Part shown: positions 5,701-21,627 of the stretch, in pieces
How positions within the stretch are numbered: position 1 is the stretch's first letter
Layout: every line of letters starts with the position of its first letter
Source of the DNA: Candidatus Coatesiibacteriota bacterium
GTDB taxonomy: Bacteria > RBG-13-66-14 > B26-G2 > WVWN01 > G020348885
Direction of reading: 5' to 3'
NCBI GenBank assembly: GCA_020348885.1
Contig: CP070755.1
Span: 613,321-663,919, forward strand
Length of the DNA: 50,599 nt
Program-made: the position numbers and the translations under genes
Notes under the pieces: model-generated
The model's database searches: none
What the model saw: only the letters and a program-made list of their open reading frames with translations
What the model was told of the DNA's origin: nothing

Positions 5701-6555
5701 ATGCAGGAATTTCTTGAGGGTTACCGCCATCCGCTAAAGCTTATTGTGGCCGATCTAGACGGTTGTCTAACCGGTTACGAGGAGGGACCGGTGGATGCCG
5801 TCGGGCTGGCGGAGTTAAGGCTGTGGAACGACCGGGCGGCGGAAGATTCCAACGTCCCGCCTCTCGTCCTGATAAGCGGACGTCCGATGGGGTACGTGGA
5901 AGCGTTCGCGAGGATTATAGGCGCGCCGCACCCGTGCATCTTCGAGAACGGCTGCGGGATGTATAGGTCGGACGGCGGGTTGGGGCACGAGTACGCATTT
6001 CATCCGGTCCTCATCGCCGATACGGAAGCTGACGGGGCAGTGGTTATTTTAAACGAATACTTCGAGGAACATCTGATAAAGTCGAAGGGGTGCGGTAGAA
6101 TTATAGGCAAAAAATACGCCATAAGCCTGACGCCCTGCCCCGGCGGGACCGTCGAGGAACTAATGGCAGCCGTGGAAAAAGCCCCCGCCGAGTTACTGGA
6201 CAAATTCTATATAACCCGTTCGATTTCGGTGGTCGACATTACGCCCGCCGGTATCAACAAAGGTTCCGGTTTTGACTGGTTAATCGATGTACTAAGAGAC
6301 GATTACGGTTTTGACTTCTACCCCGATAACGTTCTGGGTATCGGTGACAGTTGGGGCGACTTGCCGTTTTTAGAAAAGTGCGGCGTTTCCACCGCGCCGG
6401 CGAACGCGGCCGCAGAAATCCGAGAACGTGTGGATTACGTATCGGTATCTAACGAAGTACATGCGGTGCTTGACATAATCGCCGGTGCCGTCGTTCACAA
6501 CAAGAGATTGGCCGAGCTCGAAACGGATATGACTAATGAAAAAACCGGTGCGTGA
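5701..6555 (+). CDS. HAD-superfamily phosphatase (Cof/type IIB-like)
   Basis: This 284-residue protein has all four HAD motifs: DLDGCLT (18-24, nucleophile D18 and acid D20), the motif II serine in LISGRP (S59), the motif III lysine in INKGSG and the motif IV GIGDSWGDLPF. The large cap between motifs II and III fits type IIB phosphatases such as Cof-like, sucrose-phosphate and phosphoglycolate phosphatases. The substrate is probably a small phosphorylated sugar or acid. It starts six bases after the radical SAM stop and ends ten bases before mutL, so it belongs to the same transcript. Confidence 0.88.
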   Translation: MQEFLEGYRHPLKLIVADLDGCLTGYEEGPVDAVGLAELRLWNDRAAEDSNVPPLVLISGRPMGYVEAFARIIGAPHPCIFENGCGMYRSDGGLGHEYAFHPVLIADTEADGAVVILNEYFEEHLIKSKGCGRIIGKKYAISLTPCPGGTVEELMAAVEKAPAELLDKFYITRSISVVDITPAGINKGSGFDWLIDVLRDDYGFDFYPDNVLGIGDSWGDLPFLEKCGVSTAPANAAAEIRERVDYVSVSNEVHAVLDIIAGAVVHNKRLAELETDMTNEKTGA

Positions 6556-6564
6556 TGTCCCGAT

Positions 6565-8364
6565 ATGATACGTAAGCTGACCGAGGACGTAATACGTCTC
6601 ATCGCGGCCGGCGAGGTGGTCGAGGGGCCTTGGTCCGTCGTAAAGGAGTTGATGGAGAATAGCCTCGACGCCGGTGCCTCTCGAGTCGAGGTATTTCTCA
6701 AGGGCGGCGGGTTGGATGAGATAACCGTCCGGGACGACGGTTGCGGTATGACCGAGGCAGAGGTAGCGCTGGTTTTCGACCGCCATACGACGAGTAAGAT
6801 AGAGGAAGCCGGCGACTTGGACCGTATTACGACCCTTGGGTTTCGGGGCGAGGCGCTCGCGGCGATAGCCGCCGTATCTAACGTGACGTTGATTACCAAG
6901 CCGCCGGGTGAGTTACTTGGTACTAAAGTCGTGGTTAGCGCCGGGGAAGTCGGAGAGCAGACGCCCGAAGGCGCGCCCGACGGCACGACTGTTACCGTCC
7001 GAAACCTTTTCAAGAACGTACCGGCGCGGGAGAAGTTCGCCGGCGGAAAAACTACCGAGGGCCGGAAAGCGATGGAGCAGTTCCGGCGTGTCGCGCTGGC
7101 TCAAACGGAACCGGAGTAAAAATTAACATCGGGAAGGCGCCTCCAATATACCTGCGCCGGGAACGCCGGTATCCGCGAGCGCGTCGGTGAGGTACTCGGT
7201 TGGGAAAGCCTCGATTATTTATTACCCTTCGAGTTCGAAAAAGACGGGGTGCGTGTATATGGTTACGTTTCGCGGCCGGGAACGTCGTGGGCCCGAGCGG
7301 CGCGGGTGTATACGATAGTCAACCGTCGCCCGGCCAGAAGCCGCCCGGTATTCCAGGGGTTAATGACGGCGTATGCCGGTCACCTCGAAAAGGGCCGCTA
7401 CCCGACGGCCGTGTTGTATCTAGATATCGATGTGGGACGTTTGGACGTGAACGTACATCCCCGAAAGGAAGAGGTAAGATTCGACGACGAGGACGGGTTA
7501 TACCGTGTCATTATGGCGGCCGTAACCGAAGCTATAGTTCAATACAAGCCGGTCGTTCCCGTAGACGCGTTCGTCGGCGGAGATACATCGGAGACGGAAG
7601 GGGTGGAGTATCCACTTAGAGTATCGCCCGCGGTTCGAGACGCCGTCGAGGATTATATCAGGCGCCACGGTTTGGTGCGGATACCCGACGACGTAAATAC
7701 GCGCGAATGGTCGATGGGCTTCAGCAACGGAAGCCCCCGCGTAAGCGTCGCCCAACCGGCCGCGCCGGCTGTGACGGCCGTAACGGGGAGCGAGATAAAA
7801 ATACTCGGGCAGTTGTATAACAAGTACATTATCGCTGATACGGGCAAGGGGTTGGTCGTTATAGACCAGCATACGGCGCACGAACGAGTGATATACGAAC
7901 GGTTGAAAGCGGCATACGGGGTAGGGTCGGTAGTCGGCCAAAGGTTGCTAGTACCGGTGACTTTTGCAATGGACCGGGGCGAGCTGGAATTATTGGACGC
8001 GTTGGCCGACGACTTCGCCGAACTCGGTTTTGAGCTGGAAGCCTTCGGCGGCGATACCTACGCGGTGAAGTCCCATCCCGCCGACCTGTTACCGTCGGAT
8101 GCGGGCGAATTCGTCCGGGGCGTATTGGACGACTTCGTCGAACGCGGCGGGAAACCCGGCGCGCCCCAAGCCCGGGAGCGATTACTCAGGAGCGTAGCTT
8201 GCCGTGCGGCGGTAATGGCAGGGTACCCGTTGGAGCCGGAGGAGATGGCGGCTCTGGTACGCGACTTACTGGCTACCGACAGTCCGACGGTATGCCCCCA
8301 CGGGCGACCAACGATGGTGGACCTCCCGGACCGAGTGTTGAACCGTCTATTTAACAGAAACTGA
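6565..8364 (+). pseudogene. mutL: DNA mismatch repair protein MutL, interrupted by an in-frame stop
   Basis: Read as one frame this is a normal-length MutL (600 codons including the internal stop). The N-terminal GHKL ATPase motifs are ENSLDAGA (31-38), DDGCGM (57-62), HTTSKI (74-79) and GFRGEAL (92-98). The C-terminal endonuclease domain has DQHTAHERVIYE (about 434-445, the DQHAxxExxxxE motif with A to T) and CPHGRP (about 577). TAA at 7117-7119 (codon 185) stops translation, yet the same frame continues at once with K-L-T-S-G-R-R and a typical MutL region, so a point change rather than a frameshift is implied. A usually conserved E-R-P-A-S reads E-G-P-W-S at 20-24. It could be a pseudogene, a sequencing error, or two separately translated halves (a GTG at 7249 has no clear ribosome site). 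Confidence 0.88.
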
Positions 8365-8389
8365 ACGGTTCGTGTTGAAGACCGTTCAG
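8361..8389 (+). terminator. Possible hairpin terminator overlapping the mutL stop
   Basis: CTGAACGGT (8361-8369) pairs perfectly with ACCGTTCAG (8381-8389) around an 11-base loop. The T-run (CTATTTTT) begins only about eight bases later, so termination would be weak. Confidence 0.35.
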
Positions 8390-8450
8390 AATAATGCTAT
8401 TTTTCGCTACTCGTAGAAGTTCGCATGCTTTAAAGAGAGGGGTATCGAGT

Positions 8451-9224
8451 ATGCGCAGTTCGCTGTGGTTTATCTACATATCGGTCGCTGCTTCGGTCTT
8501 ATACGTTTCTTGCGGGGACGGTGGTACGAGCCCCGGCGTCGGCGATGAGGGTTACTTCCCGAATAAGGAAGGTTCGACGTGGACGTACGAGGTTACGGAT
8601 TCGAATATCCGGGAGACCTGGAACGAGACGCGGACCGTGAAAGGGACCAGGGACGTTTACGGCGTTGTTTGTCAGATAATAGAATCCACGTACTCCGACG
8701 CCGAGGGTGAGTTGGACCGGACGTTTATAAAGGACGACGAAAAAAACCAGGTAGACATCTGGGGTACCGAAAGGGCGGTCGATGGTTCAGTCGAGGACAC
8801 CTTCTATTTCGAGGTAGGCGTCCCGTGGTTGAAGTATCCTTGTACCGTCGGCTCAAGTTGGCACGTTTATTCGGCGAAAGGTCTCAAACCTACTGAAATC
8901 CCGTTCGCCGGGTTCGAGGACGACGACCTAGACGACGACGGCATACCGGACTCCGCCGACGTAACCGTAAACGCGGACGTAATCGTCCAGGAAGACGTGA
9001 GCGTGAGGGCCGGAGTTTTCAGCGATTGCTTCAAGGTCGTGTACACTTTCGATTTCGTGGTTTATTGTTCGGAGTGGGGCGATTGGCCGATGGGCGCGAC
9101 TTCGTACCAGTGGTTCAAACCGTACGTAGGGTTCGTACGGAGCTATACGGTTATTGACTTGCCGACACCCTTACCCGACTCTGAGGTTATGGAGGAGCTT
9201 CTTTCGTATGACCTGCCGTCATAG
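8451..9224 (+). CDS. Putative lipoprotein of unknown function
   Basis: A 257-residue exported protein with a hydrophobic N-terminus and Cys at position 21 (LYVSC), a poor but possible lipobox. The mature part is acidic, contains the calcium-loop-like D-D-D-L-D-D-D-G-I-P-D-S near residue 162, and has a 'YFPNKEGSTWTYEV' opening often seen in unassigned outer-surface lipoproteins of such genomes. I start it at ATG 8451 because AGAGAGG lies about ten bases upstream and the signal peptide begins there; an earlier in-frame start at 8394 would add 19 polar residues. No enzyme motif is visible. Confidence 0.72.
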   Translation: MRSSLWFIYISVAASVLYVSCGDGGTSPGVGDEGYFPNKEGSTWTYEVTDSNIRETWNETRTVKGTRDVYGVVCQIIESTYSDAEGELDRTFIKDDEKNQVDIWGTERAVDGSVEDTFYFEVGVPWLKYPCTVGSSWHVYSAKGLKPTEIPFAGFEDDDLDDDGIPDSADVTVNADVIVQEDVSVRAGVFSDCFKVVYTFDFVVYCSEWGDWPMGATSYQWFKPYVGFVRSYTVIDLPTPLPDSEVMEELLSYDLPS

Positions 9225-9580
9225 TAAGGCGATCTCGACCGAATACAAGATACGTCCTTAAAGGTATTACTCGGTACTAAAAGAAAAGCCGTGCGTCGCG
9301 AATAACGTTCCGGGCGGGGCGTTTTCCGGGGAGAGGTAGGCACCGCTACGTCTTGTTACTTGGCAATAGGGTGTACGCCTATAATCTTAGACGCGTTTAT
9401 GTAGTATATATACTAATAGGCCGATGATGTAACGGTAGTAACTATCAGTATATGCGGGTTACCGATAATAACGGGTGGCGATTACCGAAACCGGTTCGTT
9501 CAGTCACGATAGTTCTCGTCTCGAGGTTTCGCGTCTTAAAGGTAGGGAATTAAAGCGTTACACCGAACAGGTTTTTTCGC
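9225..9580. other. Non-coding stretch between lipoprotein and receptor promoter
   Basis: No supported gene on either strand. It contains a perfect 12-base palindrome AGTATATATACT (9403-9414) and a TATAAT at 9380 whose best upstream -35 lies only 14 bases away. There is no clear terminator after the lipoprotein gene. The following 9581-9868 is covered by the promoter and leader entries. Confidence 0.5.
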
Positions 9581-9609
9581 TTGACACGTATTTTCGCGTA
9601 TGGTAGATT
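9581..9609 (+). promoter_or_regulatory. Sigma-70-like promoter of the surface cassette
   Basis: A perfect -35 TTGACA (9581-9586) and the -10 TAGATT (9604-9609) have the ideal 17-base spacing. The predicted transcription start near 9616 leaves about 250 bases of untranslated leader before the TTG at 9869. Confidence 0.7.
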
Positions 9610-9615
9610 CCCGAA

Positions 9616-9868
9616 AATTGGAGGGGTCGAGTAGCCGTTCCCTGGCGTATCGGTGCTGGGGAATCGGGGGATGCATTGGTACAAAGCTTCATGGCTAACT
9701 TCGCCAGCGTAAATTGACCCTTTGATGACCGAGGTTTTTAAAGGAGGTGAAAGGTAGTAAGGGGAATCGAGTTCAAAAGAGGGTTTAATAAAACCAATAA
9801 CGATAGATAAAGTGTTAAACGGGATTTCTTCAATATTGAATTGCCGAAGTAGAAAGGGGGCAAACGCT
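9616..9868 (+). promoter_or_regulatory. Long structured 5' leader of the TonB-receptor gene
   Basis: Two nested pairings are visible: GGGTC (9624-9628) with GACCC (9716-9720), and CTGGCG (9642-9647) with CGCCAG (9702-9707), the latter next to GGCTAACTTCGCCAGCGT. A perfect Shine-Dalgarno core AAAGGAGGTG (9739-9748) follows but no start codon is correctly placed after it. The leader is long and shows stem structure, so a cis-regulatory RNA is possible. I could not match it to a known riboswitch class. Confidence 0.4.
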
Positions 9869-12517
9869 TTGAGAGCACGAGGGAATTCGGCCCGGATAGT
9901 CTTTACCGCGGCGCTTATGCTATTGTACGCTAGCGTAGCTTTCGCCGGTAATACGGGGATTATTTCCGGTTTGGTTACCGACGAAAATGGTAAAGGCGTA
10001 AGCGGAGCCCTGGTGGTCGTAAAAGGCGCGAATATGTTCGCGACGACGAACGCCGACGGGTATTACGTCGTCAACGGCGTACCAGTCGGTTACTTCGACG
10101 TCAAGGCTTCGCGCGTAGGTTATAGTGAGATGGTTCAAACCGGCGTAAAGGTGGTCGCCGACCTCCGGACAAACGTGAGCTTCCAGCTTCAGTCCCAGGT
10201 TACCGGTACGCACGTCATCGAGTCTGAAAAACCGTTGATAGAGTTCAAAGAAACGATGACGGCCGATACCATCGACTCCGACGCGATAGATAAACAGGTG
10301 GTCGACGAGTTCGCCGATATGCTCGCGCGTACGCCCGGTATCGTTTACGAGGACAGTGACGCGAGTACTCTGAACTTGCACATCCGCGGCGGCCGCGGGA
10401 ACGAAATCGCGTATATCGTCGACGGCATCAACATCACCAACCCGATAGTCGGCGGCGCCGGTATGCAAGTACCGACCGACGCTATCGCCGAAATGAGTAT
10501 CATCAAGGCCGGTTGGGACGCCGAGTACGGCGAAGCCCAGTCGGGCATCATCAACATCAGTACGAAGGAAGGCCGCGACACTTATACGGGTAACGTGGAC
10601 GTGGTTTACGAGGTATATACGGGTAAACATGACAAGAGTTCACATAAGTACCTCGAAGCTACGGGGTTGGAAGATCCGGACGTACCTCTCGTAACTTGGG
10701 AAACGCGGACGCGCCAGACGAAGTATTCCAAAGTGTCCGGTAGTTTCGGCGGTCCGATTGTCAACCCGTACCTGAGCTTCTTCGTTGGCGGAGACTATAA
10801 GCGGGATTGGACCGTTTACCCGCTTCCAAACCCGGATACCGAATGGAATGCTAACGCCAAATTGACGATTAAACCGACGAACCGTTACCGCATGAGCCTA
10901 AGCGCCGGGAAATACCGTGAGGACCACGATTACTTCGATAACCAATACCAGTACGTCCTTGACGAGCATTACGAACACCGGATGGTGGACGCGTTAAGGT
11001 TGAGCGGTAAGTGGACCCATAACGTTACGGACAGCGCGTTTTATGAGGTAAACGGCGGTATGTTCAAGGAGCATCGTTTACGTAATACCGACGGTAAATT
11101 CTGGACCGATTACTACCGCGATCCGCCGAACCCGCAGTCCGACCCGACCGGATGGTTCATCACCGACGGCGATTGGCCGTTCTATCAAGACAGGTACCAA
11201 CAGTACTACAACGTCAAGGGCGACTTCACCTACAATATGGCCCGCGGGTCCGAAGGCGGAACCGTGGGTAGGTTGGCCGAGAACCAGATAAAATGCGGGG
11301 GCGACGTTAAGCTCTTCGACCTGGACTTCTACGAAGTGTACGCGCCGTCGGGCAATATCTACACGGACGTTTACTACGTGGAACCCCGCTCGTACGCGGC
11401 TTACGTCCAGGATAAGCTGGAATACTCGGGGATGATTATCAACGTAGGCGTTCGTTTCGATATGTTCGACCCGAACGCCGATTACCCGCTCGACCCATGG
11501 GATTTCCGGTACGCGCTCGACGGTACACCGATAAACCTGGATTCGGATTACGAAACGTATAAAGATACGCCGCGGAAGAAAGCGGATAAAACGTATCAGG
11601 TAAGCCCGCGTATCGGTATAAGTTACCCGATTACCGATCGGGATAAACTGCACTTCTCTTACGGGCACTTCTTCCAGACGCCGCCGTACGCGTACCTGTA
11701 CGAATCGACGCAGCTGGAGCTGAATACGAGCGGGTATCCGTTGATGGGTAATCCTGACCTTAACCCGCAGAAGACGATACAATACGAGATAGGCGTCGAG
11801 CACTTATTTACCGATACGCTTAAAGCCGACGTATCGGCGTACTTCAAGGATATCAAAGACCTGCTCGACACCGAGCGTATCAATTACGAAACGGGGCAGA
11901 ATTACACCCGGTACATAAACGCCGATTTCGGGAGCGTCCGCGGTCTTGAGGTCAAGATTGATCAGCGGGTGACTAGAAACTTCTCGGGTTCGGTAGGGTA
12001 TACGTTCTCGGTGGCCAAGGGTCTTGCTTCGGATATCTACCAGGGTTATAACTACTCGTACCGTACCTGGACCGCGCCTATTCGCGAGAACCTGCTTGAC
12101 TGGGACCAGACGCATACACTCGACTTGATGTTAGACTATCGAACGAATCGCGAGAATCATAACTTCGGCGTAAATACGACCTTGGTTTACGGTTCCGGTA
12201 TGCCGTATTCGAAGCCTAAGGAAGGGTCCGGGCAGCCCGAAGTTAATACGCAGCGGATGCCGTGGACGATGGATTGGGCCATAAAGGTCAACTACGACGT
12301 AAACTTCTTGGGCTTGACATACAGCGCGTACTGCGAAGTGCTGAACCTCCTGAACCGCAGGAACGTATACAACTTCGGCGCCGACGAAGGCGACGGTGCT
12401 GGCGAGGACTGGATTCCGTTCTACTACTTCTACGGCGACGCCGACGGGCCGTACGACGACCTCGAGGTATGGGGCGACCCGATGCGGCTGCGTGTCGGAC
12501 TGAGCGTAGGCTTCTAA
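9869..12517 (+). CDS. TonB-dependent receptor with N-terminal carboxypeptidase-regulatory domain
   Basis: An outer-membrane receptor of 882 residues. After a signal peptide (ending about ASVAFA) comes a beta-sandwich of the CarboxypepD_reg type (GIISGLVTDENGKGVSGA ... GYYVV), then a plug domain with the typical L-x-x-x-P-G-I and I-R-G-G and VDG-I-N-I signatures, then a long barrel ending in Phe. This is the SusC/Oar-like layout of FCB bacteria. I choose TTG at 9869 because AAAGGGGG sits eight bases upstream and the signal peptide begins there; a GTG at 9812 has no ribosome site. It is followed by a hairpin and by the genes for a large secreted protein and a PorV-like barrel, suggesting a surface assembly or uptake unit. 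Confidence 0.9.
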   Translation: MRARGNSARIVFTAALMLLYASVAFAGNTGIISGLVTDENGKGVSGALVVVKGANMFATTNADGYYVVNGVPVGYFDVKASRVGYSEMVQTGVKVVADLRTNVSFQLQSQVTGTHVIESEKPLIEFKETMTADTIDSDAIDKQVVDEFADMLARTPGIVYEDSDASTLNLHIRGGRGNEIAYIVDGINITNPIVGGAGMQVPTDAIAEMSIIKAGWDAEYGEAQSGIINISTKEGRDTYTGNVDVVYEVYTGKHDKSSHKYLEATGLEDPDVPLVTWETRTRQTKYSKVSGSFGGPIVNPYLSFFVGGDYKRDWTVYPLPNPDTEWNANAKLTIKPTNRYRMSLSAGKYREDHDYFDNQYQYVLDEHYEHRMVDALRLSGKWTHNVTDSAFYEVNGGMFKEHRLRNTDGKFWTDYYRDPPNPQSDPTGWFITDGDWPFYQDRYQQYYNVKGDFTYNMARGSEGGTVGRLAENQIKCGGDVKLFDLDFYEVYAPSGNIYTDVYYVEPRSYAAYVQDKLEYSGMIINVGVRFDMFDPNADYPLDPWDFRYALDGTPINLDSDYETYKDTPRKKADKTYQVSPRIGISYPITDRDKLHFSYGHFFQTPPYAYLYESTQLELNTSGYPLMGNPDLNPQKTIQYEIGVEHLFTDTLKADVSAYFKDIKDLLDTERINYETGQNYTRYINADFGSVRGLEVKIDQRVTRNFSGSVGYTFSVAKGLASDIYQGYNYSYRTWTAPIRENLLDWDQTHTLDLMLDYRTNRENHNFGVNTTLVYGSGMPYSKPKEGSGQPEVNTQRMPWTMDWAIKVNYDVNFLGLTYSAYCEVLNLLNRRNVYNFGADEGDGAGEDWIPFYYFYGDADGPYDDLEVWGDPMRLRVGLSVGF

Positions 12518-12528
12518 CGGTATTCAAA

Positions 12529-12553
12529 GGGCGGCCGGAAACGCCGGCCGCCC
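12529..12553 (+). repeat. Strong GC hairpin between receptor and secreted-protein gene
   Basis: GGGCGGCCGG (12529-12538) pairs perfectly with CCGGCCGCCC (12544-12553) around a five-base loop. There is no T-run, so it is more likely an mRNA 3'-end stabiliser or processing barrier than a terminator. Confidence 0.6.
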
Positions 12554-12597
12554 ATAACATAAGCCTGTTAAAGCGGACCCGAAAGGAGTGAACGACT

Positions 12598-14712
12598 TTG
12601 ATTAGGCGACACAACCTTTTCCGGCCGGTGCGTCTGTTGGCTGTCGGCCTTATTATTCTGGGCGCAGCCGTGATGACCGTATCGGCCGTGAAATATAAAC
12701 ACACCGGCACCGGCACCACTTACGGACGCGCCACGGCGTACGATTATATGACTGCCGGGCAACTCTGGTTGAAAGTCTGGAACATCATGGGGTGCGGCGA
12801 CGCGTCCGGCGACCATGCTGGCGAATGGCCCGGAGGCTCAGGTGCCTCGTACGTGTACACGGGTAACTACTGGTTCGGTTGGGCCGAAGGCGAGACGATT
12901 TACGTAATTCAGGAATGGCAGTTAACCGAACTCGAGTGGCACCCGTTACCGCCCTGCGAGAACCAGATTCTGATGAGCAACAACGAAAACTGGTCCGAGT
13001 TGCCGTACGTGGAAGCCGGCATCTCCGCAGACCCCGTATCCGACCTCGATTGCTTCACCTGGTGCGACGACTCGGACGCGGGCGAGAACGGTCCCATAGG
13101 CCTGAGGACGTATATGCGCGGGTACCAGTGGGGCGTCCCCGGCCACGACGACTGGATTGTCTTCGAGTACAAGGTTTGGAACCAACATGGTTCGGATCTG
13201 AACGGCTATTTCCTCGCCAATCCGTACGATAACGACTGCGGCGGCGGCCTCGACTACATCGACGACCTGGTACTCTTCGAGGGTAATGATTCGACTGATT
13301 TATGGACCAACCCTAACGTCGCGGGACAACCGTGGACAAATCCCACACCTGACGGTATCCCCGACGAGAACGACTACGTGAACTTCAATAACCTCGAAGA
13401 AGGCTTCCAGCGTTTGATGCCTGTAATGTACGACGCGGGCGGCGAGGAGCGTGACTTCCCGGGTTACATAGGTCTCAGGATGATGTTCGTCGAGTTCAAC
13501 CCTGAGGACTCGAATACCTTTAGCTACCGGGTAAGGTCCCAGCACTCGTGGGATATTATGAACGACCCGGAGACCGACGCCCATAAGTACGGTTACCTTG
13601 CGGACGTGGATACGTACGAGGAGATAACCACGCCGTATGACTGGCGCGTTTGCCCGGCGAGCGGCCCCTTGGACATAGCCAAGGACGCAACCCAGGTATG
13701 GTGGTGCGCTGTCGTGATGGGCGCGGACCTCAACGACATGAGGATGAACTCGGACCAGATGTACGCCGACTTCCTCGGACCGGACGGGACACCCGGCACC
13801 GACGACGACTGGTTCGTCCCCAGCCCGCCCAGAGCCCCCAGGCTCGTCGGTATCAAGGGCGACGACCAGGTTACCCTCCGCTGGAACCCGGCTTACGAAA
13901 TCGGCAAGAACCTGGAAACCGAACCGGATAACAGTACCGGCGTAGTTGACTTCGACGGTTACGTGGTCTGGCGTAGCGACATCGGTTACGACATCGGTTG
14001 GGAACCGATCATCTGGGTGGATAAATTAACCACAAACGCCAGGGCTTATTTCCCCTGGGGTTGGCGTACCGGCGAACGTACACCCGACGGCTACGACCCG
14101 CAACATCCCGACGGCCATTCGCCGGTGGAACCTGACCTGACCGTCGTACCACAAAATAGGATGGTTACGTACGAAAGCATTACCGGCGATTCTTCGCCCG
14201 TACAGAAGGTGGCCGGTCAGTTCTACGAGTACGTCGATAATGACGTCGTTAACGGCACGCGGTACTATTACGCCGTCGTCGCATACGATTTCGGCGATAG
14301 AGACCCCGTTACCGATGTGACGACCGAACCGGCCATCGGCGGAAAGAACGCTAACGCGCTCGACATTATCCCGACGATGCCGGTAACGAATAATCTGGCG
14401 AACGTGAAGGTCGTTCCCAACCCGTACCGTGGCTCCGCCGACTGGGAAGAGTGGTCGCCTTCGGGCATTCGGTTGGGCCGTATTTACTTCACCAACCTCC
14501 CGGCCGAGTGTACGATAAGGATTTACACGATTGCCGGCGATCTTGTTAAAACTATAGCGAGGAACGACACCGAATACGGCGCCGAGCCCTGGGACCTTAC
14601 GGGCGAAGCGGGTGTTCAGGTGGCGTCGGGCATTTACGTTTACCATATTGAAATGTCCGGCAGCGACGAGACTACGATAGGTAAATTCGCGGTCCTAGTC
14701 GGCCAGAACTAA
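12598..14712 (+). CDS. Large secreted surface protein with C-terminal sorting-type domain (copy 1)
   Basis: A 704-residue exported protein: signal peptide (about 1-30), a long aromatic- and Asp-rich body with conserved cysteines (PPCENQ, DCFTWCDDSD, NDCGGGLDY, WRVCP, WWCAVVMG), a fibronectin-III-like section (PRLVGIKGDDQVTLRWNP onwards) and a C-terminal domain beginning KVVPNPYRGSADW and ending GKFAVLVG. That ending resembles FlgD-like/type IX-type C-terminal domains of FCB surface proteins. The TTG start has AAAGGAG eight bases upstream. A paralogue lies at 15898, with the PorV-like gene between them. Function unknown; a partner of the adjacent receptor is my inference. Confidence 0.85.
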   Translation: MIRRHNLFRPVRLLAVGLIILGAAVMTVSAVKYKHTGTGTTYGRATAYDYMTAGQLWLKVWNIMGCGDASGDHAGEWPGGSGASYVYTGNYWFGWAEGETIYVIQEWQLTELEWHPLPPCENQILMSNNENWSELPYVEAGISADPVSDLDCFTWCDDSDAGENGPIGLRTYMRGYQWGVPGHDDWIVFEYKVWNQHGSDLNGYFLANPYDNDCGGGLDYIDDLVLFEGNDSTDLWTNPNVAGQPWTNPTPDGIPDENDYVNFNNLEEGFQRLMPVMYDAGGEERDFPGYIGLRMMFVEFNPEDSNTFSYRVRSQHSWDIMNDPETDAHKYGYLADVDTYEEITTPYDWRVCPASGPLDIAKDATQVWWCAVVMGADLNDMRMNSDQMYADFLGPDGTPGTDDDWFVPSPPRAPRLVGIKGDDQVTLRWNPAYEIGKNLETEPDNSTGVVDFDGYVVWRSDIGYDIGWEPIIWVDKLTTNARAYFPWGWRTGERTPDGYDPQHPDGHSPVEPDLTVVPQNRMVTYESITGDSSPVQKVAGQFYEYVDNDVVNGTRYYYAVVAYDFGDRDPVTDVTTEPAIGGKNANALDIIPTMPVTNNLANVKVVPNPYRGSADWEEWSPSGIRLGRIYFTNLPAECTIRIYTIAGDLVKTIARNDTEYGAEPWDLTGEAGVQVASGIYVYHIEMSGSDETTIGKFAVLVGQN

Positions 14713-14728
14713 AAAGGAGGCGAAAAAG

Positions 14729-15673
14729 ATGCGGAAGATATTAATCACGGCATTAATACTAGCATGCGCCTCCCCCGCCTTCGCCGCCGGTAAAGAAGGC
14801 ACTTCGGGCGCCCAATTCCTGAAGATAGGCGTTGGGGCGCGTGCGGCCGCGATGGGCGACGCGTATGATACCGTCACGTCGAACGCGGAAGCCATCTTCT
14901 GGAACCCGTCCGGTCTGGTCGGTGTCCAGAACCATTCCATCACGGTTTCCGACAATGAATGGATCGCGGATACCAGGGTAATATCCGGCGCGTACGCGAA
15001 GCGTTTCGGTTTCGGTACATTCGGCGTCGGCGTCCATTACCTGATGTACGGTGAAATGGAAGAGACGACGGTTAACGACCCGGACGGTACCGGTCGTATG
15101 TTCAGCTCAAGCGACATGGCGATTTCCGTCGGTATGGGTCGTTCGTTAACGGACCGTTTCTCCGTCGGAGGCGCAGCGAAAATTCTTCGTCTTAACATCG
15201 ACGACATGAGCGCGATGGGCGTCTGTTTCGACGTTGGTACCCAGTACAGGACCGGGTTCCGTACGCTCAACATGTCGATCGCGCTTCAAAACCTCGGTCC
15301 CGAGCTTAAGTACGGCGGGACCTATCTGGAACTACCTCGCGACAAGACAGAGGACCGCGTGGAGGAAGAGTTCGAAAAGTTCAGCCTACCGGTAGTAGTA
15401 AGGCTGGGACTTTCCTATACCTTTTTCGATAACCTGATACTCGCCGTCCAGGGCGTTCACCCGAACGACGGGAGGGAACGTTTGGACATCGGCGGAGAAT
15501 ATTGGGTCGCGGATATGATAGCTTTGCGCGGCGGTTATAAGTACAACTACGACGCAGCCGAGTATGCCGGCGGCGTCGGGGTGAAATTCTCGTCCCTATC
15601 CGTCGACGCGGCGTACACGGGTATGGGTAATCTGGAATACGCCTTACGCTTGACCGTGGGCGCGAATTTCTAA
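14729..15673 (+). CDS. PorV/PorQ-family (UPF0164-like) outer-membrane barrel
   Basis: This 314-residue protein has a cleavable signal peptide (ending about SPAFA), the family opening 'GTSGAQFLKIGVGARAAAMGDAY', the conserved 'NAEAIFWNPSGL', and a series of beta strands ending in Phe. The family is related to FadL/PorV barrels; PorV shuttles type IX cargo to the surface in Bacteroidetes. AAGGAGG precedes ATG by eight bases. It sits 16 bases after one sorting-domain protein and just upstream of its paralogue, which supports a role in handling those proteins. A strong terminator follows. Confidence 0.88.
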   Translation: MRKILITALILACASPAFAAGKEGTSGAQFLKIGVGARAAAMGDAYDTVTSNAEAIFWNPSGLVGVQNHSITVSDNEWIADTRVISGAYAKRFGFGTFGVGVHYLMYGEMEETTVNDPDGTGRMFSSSDMAISVGMGRSLTDRFSVGGAAKILRLNIDDMSAMGVCFDVGTQYRTGFRTLNMSIALQNLGPELKYGGTYLELPRDKTEDRVEEEFEKFSLPVVVRLGLSYTFFDNLILAVQGVHPNDGRERLDIGGEYWVADMIALRGGYKYNYDAAEYAGGVGVKFSSLSVDAAYTGMGNLEYALRLTVGANF

Positions 15674-15724
15674 ACGGTTCCCCTGCTACCGTTTAAAAAA
15701 CGGCCCCGGAAGGGGCCGTTTTAT
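15671..15724 (+). terminator. Tandem hairpins ending the receptor-PorV operon
   Basis: TAAACGGT (15671-15678) pairs with ACCGTTTA (15688-15695), directly followed by CGGCCCC (15701-15707) pairing with GGGGCCG (15712-15718) around a GGAA tetraloop. The second stem has six A before it and TTTT after it, a strong terminator. Confidence 0.88.
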
Positions 15725-15897
15725 TATGCCCGGCGTTGAGTTCTTCGCCGCGCGGTGTAACAAATACCCAGCTATTTAACAAATAAGATATACTTTCGGC
15801 GGCGAACTTAGTAACTTTTAACACGCCGCCGTCCGCGCCGTAATTATGTCTATTATAGGGCCGGGCTATTGAAGGTAGTTAAGAAGGGGTGGTTCGT

Positions 15898-18012
15898 ATG
15901 AAGGAACGGAATACATTTTCGCGTACGATTCGATTAATTATGCTTGTATTTATAGTAACCGCGGGCGTTGGCCTGTCCGTGTCGGCGGTGAAGTACGGAG
16001 GTTACGGGACCACGGCCGGCCGGTCTCCCTTTGGCGGTTACATGGACGCTGGCGAGTTGTGGCTGAGAGTGTGGAATTTTATGGCCGTAGACGAAGGCGT
16101 ATGGCCGAGCGGGTCCGGCGACGGGTATGTTTACACGGGTAACTACTGGTTCGGTGTGGACGGCCACGTCATCGCATCGTGGCAATTGACGGAAAACGAG
16201 TGGCACCCCCTTCCGCCGTGCGAGAACCAGATTCTAATGAGTAATCATGCTAACTGGTCCGAGTTGCCGTACGTGGAAGCCGGTATCCCGCCGGACCCGG
16301 TTTCGGACCTCGACTGCTTCACCTGGTGCGACGACTCGGACGCTGGCGATACCGGTCCTTTCGGCGTTAAGTCGTATATGCGCGGGTTCCAGTGGGGCGT
16401 TCCGGGACACGACGACTGGGTCATTTTGGAATATAAGGTTTGGAACAACTCTAGTAAATATTTGGAAGAGTACTTCCTGGCCAACCCGTACGACAACGAC
16501 TGCGGCGGCGGGCTGGACTATATCGACGACCTGGTCCTCTTCGAGGGCAATGACCTTACCGACGAGTGGACCAACCCTACGGAGCCGGGTCAACCCTGGA
16601 CCGATAGAATCCCCGACGGCGTTCCCGACGAGAACGACGCGGTGAACTTCGACGCCGACGGCGCGAGTGCGTTCGGCTATCCGCGGTTGATGGTCGCGAC
16701 GTACGACTCCGGCGGCGAGGAGCGCGACTTCCCCGGGTACGTCGGACTGCGATTTATGTTCGTCGAGTTCGACCCGAACGACGAGAGTACTTACAACTAC
16801 CGGGTTACGTCCCAGCACTCGTGGGATATATTGAACGACCCGGAAACCGATGCGGAGAAGTTCGCGTATATGTCCGACGTCGGTACGTACGAGGAGAAGA
16901 CGACGCCGTACGATTGGCGCGTTTGTCCTGCGATGGGGCCGCTGTCGCTTGAGAAGGACGGTACCCAGGTGTGGTGGTGCGCGGTTGTAATGGGCGACGG
17001 CCTTAACGATTTGAGGATGAACGCCGACCAGGTGTACGCGGATTTTTTGGGCCCTGACGGCGAAGCCGGAACCGAGGACGACTGGTACGTGCCGGGGCCG
17101 CCGCACGCTCCCAGGCTTGTGGGTATTAAAGGCGATGCACAAGTAACGCTGCGATGGAACCCGATGTACGAAGTGGGTAAAAACCTGGAAGACGAGGAGG
17201 ACGAGCGGAGCGGTATCATGGACTTCGACGGCTACGTCGTCTGGCGAAGCGATATCGGTTACGATACCGGTTGGGAGCCTATAGTATGGGTTGACAAGAA
17301 AACTACCGACGGAAGAGCGTACTATCCCTGGGGCTGGCGCGTTACCGGCGCCGACGAAACCAAATCCGAACGGGTCCCCGACGGTTACGACCCGAACGAC
17401 CCGGACGGGCACCCGATAACGGAACCCGACTTAACGGCTGTACCGGCCGACCGTATGGTTGCGTACGAGGGTATCAACGGGAGTTCTACGCCAGTACGTA
17501 GGGCCGCCGGTGGGTTTTACGAGTACGCGGACGAGGACGTCGTCAACGGTATGCGTTATTATTACGCCGTGGTCGCTTACGACTTCGGAGACGAGGACCC
17601 GGTGCTCGGATTCAAAAAAACCGAACCGTCTATCGGCGGACGCAACGAGAACGCGTTTAACGTCGTCCCGGCGACGCCGGCCGCCGCTAATTTGGCGAAC
17701 GTTAAAGTCGTCCCGAATCCGTATCGGGGCGCCGCCGACTGGGACGAATGGACGCCGACGGGCATCCGGTTGGGCCGCGTTTGCTTCACCAACCTACCGG
17801 CTGAGTGTGCGATAAGGATTTACACTATCGCCGGAGACCTCGTGAGGACGATACGCAGGAACGACACGGAGTTCGGAGACGAACCTTGGGACCTTACCGG
17901 CGAATCCGGCGTTCAGGTCGCGTCCGGTATATACATATATCACGTCGAAGTACCCGACAGCGACGAGACTAAGATAGGGAAGTTCGCGGTTCTGATAGGT
18001 GATATACGATAG
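15898..18012 (+). CDS. Large secreted surface protein with C-terminal sorting-type domain (copy 2)
   Basis: A 704-residue paralogue of the 12598 protein, similar from the signal peptide to the end (same PPCENQILMSN, DCFTWCDDSDAG, DNDCGGGLDYIDDLVLFEG and KVVPNPYRG blocks). The last hundred residues agree at roughly four of five positions by eye. Differences concentrate in residues 40-80 and in a short acidic insert near 425 (EDEEDERSG). ATG 15898 is chosen because AGAAGGGG lies eight bases upstream. It is separated from the first copy by the PorV-like gene and its terminator, so it is probably transcribed separately; I found no convincing promoter in 15725-15890. Confidence 0.85.
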   Translation: MKERNTFSRTIRLIMLVFIVTAGVGLSVSAVKYGGYGTTAGRSPFGGYMDAGELWLRVWNFMAVDEGVWPSGSGDGYVYTGNYWFGVDGHVIASWQLTENEWHPLPPCENQILMSNHANWSELPYVEAGIPPDPVSDLDCFTWCDDSDAGDTGPFGVKSYMRGFQWGVPGHDDWVILEYKVWNNSSKYLEEYFLANPYDNDCGGGLDYIDDLVLFEGNDLTDEWTNPTEPGQPWTDRIPDGVPDENDAVNFDADGASAFGYPRLMVATYDSGGEERDFPGYVGLRFMFVEFDPNDESTYNYRVTSQHSWDILNDPETDAEKFAYMSDVGTYEEKTTPYDWRVCPAMGPLSLEKDGTQVWWCAVVMGDGLNDLRMNADQVYADFLGPDGEAGTEDDWYVPGPPHAPRLVGIKGDAQVTLRWNPMYEVGKNLEDEEDERSGIMDFDGYVVWRSDIGYDTGWEPIVWVDKKTTDGRAYYPWGWRVTGADETKSERVPDGYDPNDPDGHPITEPDLTAVPADRMVAYEGINGSSTPVRRAAGGFYEYADEDVVNGMRYYYAVVAYDFGDEDPVLGFKKTEPSIGGRNENAFNVVPATPAAANLANVKVVPNPYRGAADWDEWTPTGIRLGRVCFTNLPAECAIRIYTIAGDLVRTIRRNDTEFGDEPWDLTGESGVQVASGIYIYHVEVPDSDETKIGKFAVLIGDIR

Positions 18013-18162: not shown

Positions 18163-19581
18163 ATGCGGGCTAAGGTAACGATAACGCTTTTCCTTTTGAC
18201 TGCCGTCTACGGGACGGTCCCGGGCGTTACGTTTTCGTTTGCGGGGGATGGAAGCGAAACGACGGCGGGCGCGCCCGGTTTCTATGTGGACGTTTCTCAG
18301 TTCTACGCGGGCTCAGCGACAGAGTTGGAGATATACGTCGGTGTGCCGTTGACCGGGTTGGAGTCTGTGGAAGTCAACGAAAACTTAGTGTACTCGTTTA
18401 CCGTCGGCGCCCAATTGGAGACCGGCGACGGCGAGTTGATCGACCGGGACGTAATCTCGAAGACGGCGGTTTTACCCAAATCCGATACCCGCGGCGCGTC
18501 TTTATCCGTGGCGCAGGTTTCGCTGGCGGCGCCGCCCGGCGAGTATGTACTTACGTGCGGCGTCGGCGATCTTAACGTGGAAACGTCCAGGGTAAGAGAA
18601 ATGGACATAATCGTAACCAAGTTCGACACGGGCGAACCTGCTTTCAGTGACCTCGAAGTGGCTTCTTCGATCGCGGCGGCGGACGAAGGGATGGAAAGCG
18701 AATTTATAAAGAGCGGTTACCAGGTGATACCGAACCCTACTAAGCTGATAAGCGACCGACAGGGTGAGTTACTGGTTTATTACGAGTTATACGGACTTGG
18801 CGGAACGGAAAGTGAGCCGTTCGTGTACGATTTGCATTACACTATACAACTAGTGAACGGAAAAGTATATTTAAGAAACAAAGAGGTTTTAAAAGCGGCA
18901 TCCGACGCCGTATCGAAGGTCGGCGACTTTGACCTCGCCGGTTTCCCGGCCGGGCCGTACGTGTTAGCCATAAGGTTAATGGCCGCCGGCGACGCGTCGG
19001 TGTTGGCCGAAACCAGTAAAGAGTTCATATATTATCACGAAGTTACGCCGGAGGAAGTCGCCGAATTCAGAAGTAAATATCTACCGTTTACGAAGGCCGA
19101 AGCAGAACGTATTAGGCGGGAGATATCGTACGTCGCGACGAAAAGCGAGCTCGAAGCGTTCGACGCGATGAGCGACGAGGACAGGCCGATTTTTATCGAG
19201 TTGTTTTGGAAGCGTCGCGACCCGACCCCGCAGACGGAGGAGAACGAGTTTAAGGACGCGTTTTACGAGCGTTTCGATTACGCCGAGGCCCATTTCTCCA
19301 CGCCTTTTCTTGCCGGGGCGGATTCGGATATGGGTTACATATACATCAAGTTCGGGGAACCCGAGGACGTTTCGCGGGAACCGGGCGGTTTACCTTCCGA
19401 AACGGGTTATGAAGGTTCTACCTGGCAGACGGAACCTTTCGAAGTTTGGGAATATTATATCGATGGAAAACTTAGGTGGTTTCTATTCGTGGATTACGAC
19501 GGCGACGGCGATTACTACCTGGATTCGTCCAACGAACCGGGCTACGGCAGGTACGTTTCGCCGGGAAGTTCGTCGAACTGA
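18163..19581 (+). CDS. GWxTD-domain exported protein
   Basis: This 472-residue exported protein has a signal peptide (about 1-27), a beta-rich middle, and a C-terminal GWxTD-type domain (about 300-472) with FIELFWKRRDPTP, F-x-x-R-F-x-Y-A, D-M-G-Y-I-Y-I-K-F-G-E-P-E-D and a terminal W-E-Y. The domain is typical of FCB and allied phyla and its exact role is unknown; an envelope function is likely. It opens an operon with an unknown lipoprotein 18 bases downstream and a BamD-like lipoprotein, which points to outer-membrane assembly. Confidence 0.86.
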   Translation: MRAKVTITLFLLTAVYGTVPGVTFSFAGDGSETTAGAPGFYVDVSQFYAGSATELEIYVGVPLTGLESVEVNENLVYSFTVGAQLETGDGELIDRDVISKTAVLPKSDTRGASLSVAQVSLAAPPGEYVLTCGVGDLNVETSRVREMDIIVTKFDTGEPAFSDLEVASSIAAADEGMESEFIKSGYQVIPNPTKLISDRQGELLVYYELYGLGGTESEPFVYDLHYTIQLVNGKVYLRNKEVLKAASDAVSKVGDFDLAGFPAGPYVLAIRLMAAGDASVLAETSKEFIYYHEVTPEEVAEFRSKYLPFTKAEAERIRREISYVATKSELEAFDAMSDEDRPIFIELFWKRRDPTPQTEENEFKDAFYERFDYAEAHFSTPFLAGADSDMGYIYIKFGEPEDVSREPGGLPSETGYEGSTWQTEPFEVWEYYIDGKLRWFLFVDYDGDGDYYLDSSNEPGYGRYVSPGSSSN

Positions 19582-19599: not shown

Positions 19600-20235
19600 A
19601 TGAGTAAGTTGAGGAATAGGTACATACCGTTAATATCCATCGTCGCGGCGACGGTAATCGTGGCCGGATGCGGCGTAGATTACGCGCTTCCCGCCGAATA
19701 TCTTTCCGACGGAGAGCTTCTTTCCGAGTCCATGGACGACGCAGCGTCCAAGTTGGTCGGTACGCCATCTTTGACGATGGGCGGGCCTTACGTGCTTACG
19801 AATCTGGACGAGATAGATGAGGAATATTCGATACTTTATAACCGCTTCGAGGACGCCTTGGCCGATGCGCTGGGAGAAACTGAGGTTGGCGTCGTCAGCG
19901 GCGGTGAGGACGACGGCGCCGATTCGGTTAAGTACCGTCTATTGGAATGCAGGGTTCTCAACGAAAAGTCGTCCAGAGGGAAGGTTAAAAGGGTCGGTCA
20001 TACTATCGCGCATATACGGATATTCCACGGCGACGAAATGGTTTGGGCCGGCGAAATCGCGGGTTCCTACGAGAACGAGGTACCCAAGGGCGTAATTTCG
20101 AAGTTGGTCGATGAGCGGATTACCGAAATTGGACCCCAAGCGCCCGAAAAGGGTAAGAACCCGTTTATCGAACCGCTTCTCGTTACCGGGATTACCGGCG
20201 CTTTGATATACTTGTTCGCCGTTTCGGCGCAGTAA
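19600..20235 (+). CDS. Lipoprotein of unknown function
   Basis: A 211-residue protein with a clear lipoprotein signal (VIVAGC, Cys24), AGGAGG 11 bases before the ATG, a mixed alpha/beta body and a hydrophobic C-terminal segment (about 190-209, LLVTGITGALIYLFAVSA) that could re-enter a membrane. I do not recognise the family. Its place between the GWxTD protein and BamD suggests an accessory of outer-membrane assembly. Confidence 0.8.
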   Translation: MSKLRNRYIPLISIVAATVIVAGCGVDYALPAEYLSDGELLSESMDDAASKLVGTPSLTMGGPYVLTNLDEIDEEYSILYNRFEDALADALGETEVGVVSGGEDDGADSVKYRLLECRVLNEKSSRGKVKRVGHTIAHIRIFHGDEMVWAGEIAGSYENEVPKGVISKLVDERITEIGPQAPEKGKNPFIEPLLVTGITGALIYLFAVSAQ

Positions 20236-20250: not shown

Positions 20251-21000
20251 ATGAAACGGTTTGCGATTTTACCGATTACGCTGGTTTCGGTTTTAACCGT
20301 TCTGTTCGCCGGGTCTTGCGGCGAAAAGGATTTTATAAACATCCCGGTAGCCGACTTATACGAGACGGCTATGGCCAAAATGGAGTCCGGCGACGAGGAC
20401 GACGCCAGGGAAATATTCAAGCATATCCAGGCCAGGTCCGACGAATTGGCGGACGAAGCTTTATATCGCGTCGGCGAGACTTACTATCGGCAGAAACTGT
20501 ACGACGACGCGTATGCCGAATTCTCCCGGCTGATTAACCGTTACCCGGCCAGCCCCTGGTGCGACGACGCCCAATTTATGCTGGGGATGTGCCGCTTCGA
20601 TGCCGCCCTCGGCGTCGATAAGGACCCGACGTACGTAGAGGAAGCGGCTGACGAGTTTTATACCCTTATCGAGGAGTACGAGGGCAGCGAGTTAGTGGAC
20701 GATGCGTCCCGGATGATATACGAGTGCCGCCGGAGTATGGCTGAAAAGGACCTATACGTCGCGAAGTTCTACAAGAAAACGGGGAAGTACGAAGCGGCGA
20801 TAGTTTACTTGGAGGCGATACAGGAGGACTATTCGGACTTGGACATAATAGCGGAGGTTTTGTACGTCGAAGCGGAGTGTTATAAGAAACAGGGCGATTC
20901 TAGCAACGCTCGGTTTATATACGAGAAGTTGGTCGACGACTATCCGGAGACCACGTACGGAGAGAAAGCGTCGGAACGCCTGCAGGAGTTGGGGGAGTAA
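20251..21000 (+). CDS. bamD: Outer-membrane assembly lipoprotein BamD
   Basis: This 249-residue lipoprotein (lipobox FAGSC, Cys23) consists of TPR-like helical repeats with the BamD/YfiO-type blocks 'DEALYRVGETYYRQKLYDDAYAEFSRLINRYPASPW' split over repeats two and three and ending in a YPETTYGEKASERL repeat. BamD is the TPR lipoprotein that helps BamA insert beta barrels in the outer membrane. Length fits the family. Many other TPR lipoproteins look similar, so the symbol rests on lipobox plus length plus repeat type. It lies 15 bases after the unknown lipoprotein and is followed by a terminator. Confidence 0.8.
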   Translation: MKRFAILPITLVSVLTVLFAGSCGEKDFINIPVADLYETAMAKMESGDEDDAREIFKHIQARSDELADEALYRVGETYYRQKLYDDAYAEFSRLINRYPASPWCDDAQFMLGMCRFDAALGVDKDPTYVEEAADEFYTLIEEYEGSELVDDASRMIYECRRSMAEKDLYVAKFYKKTGKYEAAIVYLEAIQEDYSDLDIIAEVLYVEAECYKKQGDSSNARFIYEKLVDDYPETTYGEKASERLQELGE

Positions 21001-21033: not shown

Positions 21034-21627
21034 ATGGATAGGAAAGTAATAGCGGTTTTCGGCGGTACTTTCGACCCGCCGCATATCGGGCACTTGGTCG
21101 CGGCGTCCGACGCGTGCGAAGCGCTCGCATTGGAACGCGTCTTGTTCGTCCCGGCGGCGCGGCCGCCGCACAAACCGGGGGAGGTCGATACTCCGCCCGA
21201 ACTCCGCTTGCGTATGGTCGAACTGGCGGCCGCCGGCGACGACCGATTCGACGCGAGCGATATCGAAATCGGCCGCGACGGGCCGTCGTTCACAATAGAC
21301 ACCGTCCGCGAGTTGAAAGGCGACGATTTCGAGACGGTTTACGTGATTGTGGGAGCCGACGGTCTGGCCGAGATGACAACGTGGAAGGAGTATCGGGCGT
21401 TGTTGGACGAAGCGCGGGTCGTAGCGGTTTCCCGCCCCGGGTTCGACTTCCGGTCGGCGGAGTTTCCCGACGCCGGGGCCGTCCGGTATTTGGAGGTTAC
21501 GCCTATCGGCGTTTCGTCCACGATGATCCGTAAACGCGTGGCCGCCGGCCGCTCCATTAGATATCTGGTTCCCGAGGTTATCGAGGATTTCATTTACGAA
21601 GAAGGTCTTTATGTCGAAAGTGATTAA
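21034..21627 (+). CDS. nadD: Nicotinate-nucleotide adenylyltransferase
   Basis: This 197-residue enzyme adenylylates nicotinate mononucleotide to deamido-NAD in NAD synthesis. The nucleotidyltransferase motif GGTFDPPHIGH is at 10-20 and the SSTMIRKR motif at 161-168; length is normal. The ATG has no Shine-Dalgarno because the preceding T-run of a hairpin abuts it, so expression probably depends on read-through or on a promoter hidden in bamD. Its end overlaps yqeK by 17 bases. Confidence 0.96.
   Translation: MDRKVIAVFGGTFDPPHIGHLVAASDACEALALERVLFVPAARPPHKPGEVDTPPELRLRMVELAAAGDDRFDASDIEIGRDGPSFTIDTVRELKGDDFETVYVIVGADGLAEMTTWKEYRALLDEARVVAVSRPGFDFRSAEFPDAGAVRYLEVTPIGVSSTMIRKRVAAGRSIRYLVPEVIEDFIYEEGLYVESD

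Follow-up and report, generated by a model that had tools for sequence, protein, structure and literature searches.

What do a TonB-dependent receptor, two large secreted proteins and a PorV/PorQ-type outer-membrane barrel do when their genes lie side by side? The question is raised by a locus of Candidatus Coatesbacteria, in a genome that consists of a single contig of 2.6 Mb; the stretch analyzed here, referred to as the window, spans 50,599 nucleotides. A sequence-only reading had described the four genes as a consecutive cassette of receptor, two secreted proteins and barrel. All four were found on the plus strand and the receptor start at 9869 proved sound, but the order had to be revised. 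The receptor gene (9869..12517) is followed by the gene of the first secreted protein, here called SecA (12598..14712), the barrel gene (14729..15673), a strong terminator-like hairpin and, last, the gene of the second secreted protein, SecB (15889..18012; ATG 15898 is a likely start). The hairpin, AAAACGGCCCC-GGAA-GGGGCCGTTTT, lies 3' of the barrel gene at 15697..15722 on the plus strand (fold −27.7 kcal/mol); the stretch 15672-15728 around it has a folding z of −4.7, and it separates the barrel gene from SecB. The receptor reading frame is open from GTG 9812, and TTG 9869 appears to be the likelier start because it gives the better signal-peptide fit and has AGGGGG upstream. Below, receptor, SecA and barrel are referred to as the trio, and SecA, SecB and their relatives as Sec.

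The secreted proteins had been said to belong to no nameable family, and this was borne out, since neither SecA nor SecB has a Pfam family above cut-off and no whole-protein Pfam or NCBIfam assignment was obtained. The two are 69% identical in amino acids and 75% in DNA. Sec is one family, composed of a signal peptide, a supersandwich domain of ~370 residues, an FN3-like part and a C-terminal domain (CTD). The signal peptide of SecA was recognized from the sequence and a predicted helix at residues 8-34, while no lipobox was present in the Sec members checked (0/16). In the AlphaFold2 model of SecA, built from a 32-sequence alignment (mean pLDDT 79.4, pTM 0.75), residues ~43-410 resemble the supersandwich domain that GH15, GH65, GH94 and GH116 enzymes carry at their N-terminus, with Z scores of 18-21 over 240-270 residues and an identity of about 6-10%. 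The best structural match (VIA) reached Z 20.9 with an rmsd of 3.3 over 265 residues at 8% identity, and the match recurred with the predicted fold of L092, a Sec homologue of 28% identity found outside the phylum (Z 18.5, rmsd 3.2, 258 residues). As the supersandwich is the N-domain of these enzymes, Sec might itself be an enzyme related to glycosidases or phosphorylases, whose product is imported by the receptor. However, the fold matches are confined to the supersandwich, and the secondary structure of the model lacks the (alpha/alpha)6 barrel that forms the catalytic part of the GH enzymes. With no catalytic domain found in the model, this reading was rejected as very unlikely.

The sorting-type C-terminus that had been noticed in the secreted proteins was supported. 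The nearest solved relatives of the Sec CTD (~600-704 in SecA, with strands predicted at 604-699) are those of PorZ and PorU. Gly647, in the loop I642-V650, is conserved in 32/32 Sec sequences, and position 696 in the last strand is basic in all 32 (K in 28, R in 4). Two motifs, the Lb3b4 Gly and a Lys of the C-terminal strand, are functionally important in the CTDs of the type IX secretion system (T9SS) (PMC11285876), and in the translocon structure of F. johnsoniae the C-terminal-strand Lys contacts PorV (PMC10994853). Judged by alignment, the Sec CTD carries both of these known functional motifs. SecA did not match the general T9SS sorting models TIGR04183 and PF18962 at E 0.1, and L092 scored 21.5 against TIGR04183, just under the cut-off of 23. 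As it falls short of the general model TIGR04183, we call the domain type A-like.

A SecA orthologue was detected in 14/14 genomes of the phylum. When the other phylum loci were scanned with profiles made here, the order receptor-Sec-barrel was found in 12 of 13; in the thirteenth (G008) the contig begins only within Sec. The receptor orthologue adjoins Sec in every phylum genome where the contig reaches, and in Coatesbacteria the trio belongs to the core gene set and is present in one copy. No second full Sec copy is present in G001-G013. A conserved pair of Sec proteins was therefore rejected, as the SecB copy is absent from the other 13 genomes. By this comparison SecB is a local tandem copy, a paralogue of SecA seen in this genome alone, and the conserved triplet includes SecA only.

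In a search of 290 genomes, the C-terminal part of Sec was detected in 63 genomes outside the phylum, in some of them with the whole protein. We sampled 40 outside loci from 40 genomes (35 families), one from each and selected by their Sec match, and counted breadth in families rather than phyla. The arrangement receptor(-ExbB-ExbD-TonB)-Sec-barrel was present in 28/40 of these loci, representing 25 families. One locus has the order receptor-barrel-Sec, another six are truncated where their contigs stop, and in the remaining five Sec occurs without the trio. The TonB energy genes ExbB, ExbD and TonB lie inside the cluster at 12 loci, namely L055, L056 and L058 of Coatesbacteria and nine of the 40 outside loci. 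We also searched eight whole genomes, each selected because it had one good Sec locus, for receptor, Sec and barrel. For 18 of 24 receptors a Sec gene was found within 5 kb downstream on the same strand, compared with 0.11 expected by chance, and 15 full triplets were counted, six of them in G071 and three in G168; seven extra triplets fell outside the selection criterion. A chance neighbourhood was rejected on the basis of this excess and of the order kept outside the phylum. These numbers, together with those from within the phylum, support the conserved co-occurrence of the three gene types that the sequence-only reading had set as its test. Because it recurs so widely, the trio has the look of an uptake machine that is widespread but undescribed, and not of an accidental gene grouping; in the open-licence literature, we found no account of PorV together with a TonB-receptor operon of this type.

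The receptor scored above the Pfam cut-offs for the CarboxypepD_reg extension (58 bits, cut-off 32.3), the plug (45.8, cut-off 23.9) and the beta-barrel (88.1, cut-off 27), the latter two identifying it as a TonB-dependent receptor. The trio resembles SusCD in that such a receptor with N-terminal CarboxypepD_reg is combined with a large extracellular partner and occurs in several copies in some genomes, and the SusC-like extension of the receptor could point to genuine SusCD whose SusD has diverged. Against the SusC/RagA model TIGR04056, however, the receptor reached 56.7 bits, far under the cut-off of 368.25, placing it outside the SusC family. SusD (PF07980) was found in 0/14 phylum genomes, with a positive control. 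Moreover, Sec combines a predicted beta supersandwich with a T9SS CTD and is devoid of a lipid anchor, in contrast to the helical lipoprotein SusD; the trio has an additional barrel, and in Coatesbacteria it is single-copy and core, whereas Sus systems occur in many copies. SusCD membership was rejected on the TIGR04056 score and the missing PF07980, and we regard the odds of a diverged SusCD system as negligible. The earlier description of a SusCD-like unit without SusD was thus correct as to the absent SusD but not as to a SusC identity of the receptor. Given the TIGR04056 score, "SusCD-like" can stand solely as a functional analogy: the trio is not SusCD, although by analogy it may work like it.

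A segment of the receptor gene has a close relative elsewhere in the genome. The stretch encoding CarboxypepD_reg and plug (window 9974-10430) shares 83% DNA and 85-87% protein identity with part of the gene of an alpha-2-macroglobulin-like protein of 1487 aa (G000:C1:1896171-1896659; L031:6198-6639, within the minus-strand ORF 5833-10296), which probably reflects either a recent gene-to-gene copying event or a join made in the assembly.

The barrel is a member of the PorV/PorQ family (NF033709, 196.3 bits, cut-off 90) that stays under the cut-offs of the equivalog models NF033710 (69.7, cut-off 250) and NF033711 (121.4, cut-off 220), the closest equivalog being PorQ; the cassette-barrel profile matched the solved PorV structure 6h3i with E 1.8e-28. 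In a tree of 77 PorV-family proteins, 51 of 52 cassette barrels fell into one clade (SH-aLRT 100), which takes in just two barrels without a trio of their own. Among the barrels of the eight whole genomes, 16 of the best 17 lie directly behind Sec and the seventeenth lies beside Sec in permuted order, while 0/32 of the remaining ones adjoin Sec; the ranking profile was derived from cassette barrels and hence favours them, whereas the tree is independent of it. The barrels adjoining Sec are thus essentially one clade, distinct from other PorV paralogues. One of the two clade members without a trio belongs to this genome (L036:4816-6357) and lies beside a T9SS CTD protein of 196 aa (TIGR04183 27.6, cut-off 23) without a receptor, apparently a minimal barrel and CTD pair. 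At another locus (L026; G004:C1:407827-408216), the cassette barrel matches only the first 134 profile positions and is probably a broken or misassembled gene.

In P. gingivalis, PorZ and PorQ, and likewise PorU and PorV, form subcomplexes (PMC5562754). The trio shares with these pairs a CTD-bearing surface protein next to a PorV/PorQ-family barrel, and the cassette barrel scores best to PorQ and the Sec CTD best to PorZ; Sec differs in resembling neither PorZ nor PorU beyond the CTD and in being partnered with a TonB-dependent receptor. T9SS components are encoded in the host. SprA was matched in 14/14 phylum genomes, in 12 of them above cut-off, and a PorU sortase (443.4 bits, cut-off 420) was identified in this genome beside a PorV2-like barrel (G000:C1:755717-760964; L037). 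By sequence, this PorU and its neighbouring barrel make up the genome's general T9SS pair. The model of the T9SS motor protein GldM, TIGR03517, gave matches in 0/14 genomes and was likewise silent in the control. The known role of PorV is that of a shuttle (PMC5562754), and the cassette barrel could accordingly be a cargo-specific T9SS shuttle and nothing else, with Sec covalently attached or released and the receptor a co-regulated neighbour outside any three-part complex. The PorU sortase encoded elsewhere in the genome would fit such a role, as would barrels that accompany a CTD protein without a receptor (L125, L036). However, with a general PorV2/PorU pair at hand, no Sec would need a barrel of its own just to be shuttled, and the receptor stays with Sec and barrel across lineages (28/40 loci). 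We therefore consider a pure shuttle unlikely and the barrel the likely anchor of SecA; that Sec is held by its cassette barrel is, taken alone, quite probable.

We propose that the trio works as an outer-membrane receptor powered by TonB, with a T9SS-exported extracellular subunit that is held by a dedicated barrel and probably captures glycans, and assign to this whole chain a probability of about 0.5. The signal peptide would take SecA across the inner membrane. Its C-terminal Ig-like domain would then be recognized by the SprA/T9SS translocon, as suggested by the CTD motifs and the presence of SprA throughout the phylum. This domain would dock and stay on the PorV/PorQ-type barrel of the cassette, just as PorQ retains PorZ and PorV retains PorU. 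The supersandwich domain would be positioned over the adjacent receptor and capture a ligand, given its fold most likely a glycan or glycoconjugate, and ExbB-ExbD-TonB, whose genes share the cluster in many relatives, would drive this ligand through the receptor. In this way the trio would fill the role of SusCD, although its parts are unrelated to those of that system.

The neighbourhood of the trio also bears on its function. Downstream of SecB, on the plus strand, lie genes for a GWxTD-domain protein (18163..19581; TIGR04514 98.6 bits, cut-off 28), a lipoprotein-like protein with syntenic orthologues and no Pfam or NCBIfam match (19600..20235), and BamD/YfiO (20251..21000; TIGR03302 152 bits, cut-off 81.4). 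In the class to which the window belongs, these three usually follow the barrel, and a GWxTD gene stands after the barrel in most Coatesbacteria and at several outside loci; no mention of GWxTD was found in the open-licence literature searched. In one family (f5), genes for GWxTD, ExbB, ExbD and TonB come after the barrel (Pfam above cut-off), with no bamD seen adjoining the trio. The operon itself holds no sugar enzyme here. In the window, the BamD gene is followed by an ORF (21034-21627) that from its position we take to be NadD, and then by a YqeK gene.

That the trio lies beside bamD in the class speaks against uptake, and it could instead belong to a machine for outer-membrane biogenesis or maintenance, BAM-like or a lipid-handling canopy. 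Its single-copy, core status in the phylum and its clustering with the bamD, lipoprotein and GWxTD genes would agree with this, and the FCB group offers a precedent. In the Bacteroidota BAM complex, BamG, a FadL-type barrel, holds the surface subunit BamH (PMC12611786, PMC12578637) over BamA. Here too, a FadL-superfamily barrel would hold a surface protein with a carbohydrate-binding fold beside another barrel, and as BamH has such a fold yet serves the BAM complex, the supersandwich alone is no proof of a ligand. However, BamH is a surface lipoprotein, whereas Sec has a CTD and no lipoprotein anchor, and its neighbour is a TonB receptor in place of BamA. The several complete trio copies in G071 and G168, as known for substrate-specific receptors, the TonB-ExbB-ExbD linkage and the trios of f5 without bamD further argue against a biogenesis machine, which we judge distinctly improbable.

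If the uptake reading is true, lineages that lack SusD have capture-and-import receptors of their own, built from two parts, and one shared job, that of barrel-moored surface subunits, falls to many PorV/PorQ paralogues and sorting-domain proteins of these genomes that had been unexplained. More tentatively, and with somewhat less confidence than in the uptake reading, we suggest a new class of outer-membrane machine that is spread over many lineages. In it, a TonB-dependent receptor would cooperate with a supersandwich protein that the T9SS delivers and that stays moored for good on its own barrel of the PorV clade; the PorV/PorQ family would then serve surface anchoring in general, beyond its part in secretion. 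Sec also becomes a defined family, its fold predicted and its partner open to testing, in bacteria that are known mostly from metagenomes alone.

Further secreted proteins were seen in this and related genomes. Other CTD proteins of this genome (L061-L067) were considered as additional cassettes and dismissed, having no matching receptor or barrel neighbour. The window encodes two more secreted proteins at 42585-44963 and 46982-49300 with Por_Secre_tail scores of 29.2 and 42.6 (cut-off 27), the latter also carrying FG-GAP repeats. Finally, a shared tail like P-S-S-[LIV]-G-R-V-K-A-L-[YF] was found in several proteins (L030:6592-7587, 7642-8634 and 9753-10382; L025:2206-4308; L027:3333-4157; L065:5185-6087), some of them akin to the Sec N-domain and some encoded directly upstream of the receptor in related genomes; it is possibly a short C-terminal sorting tag.
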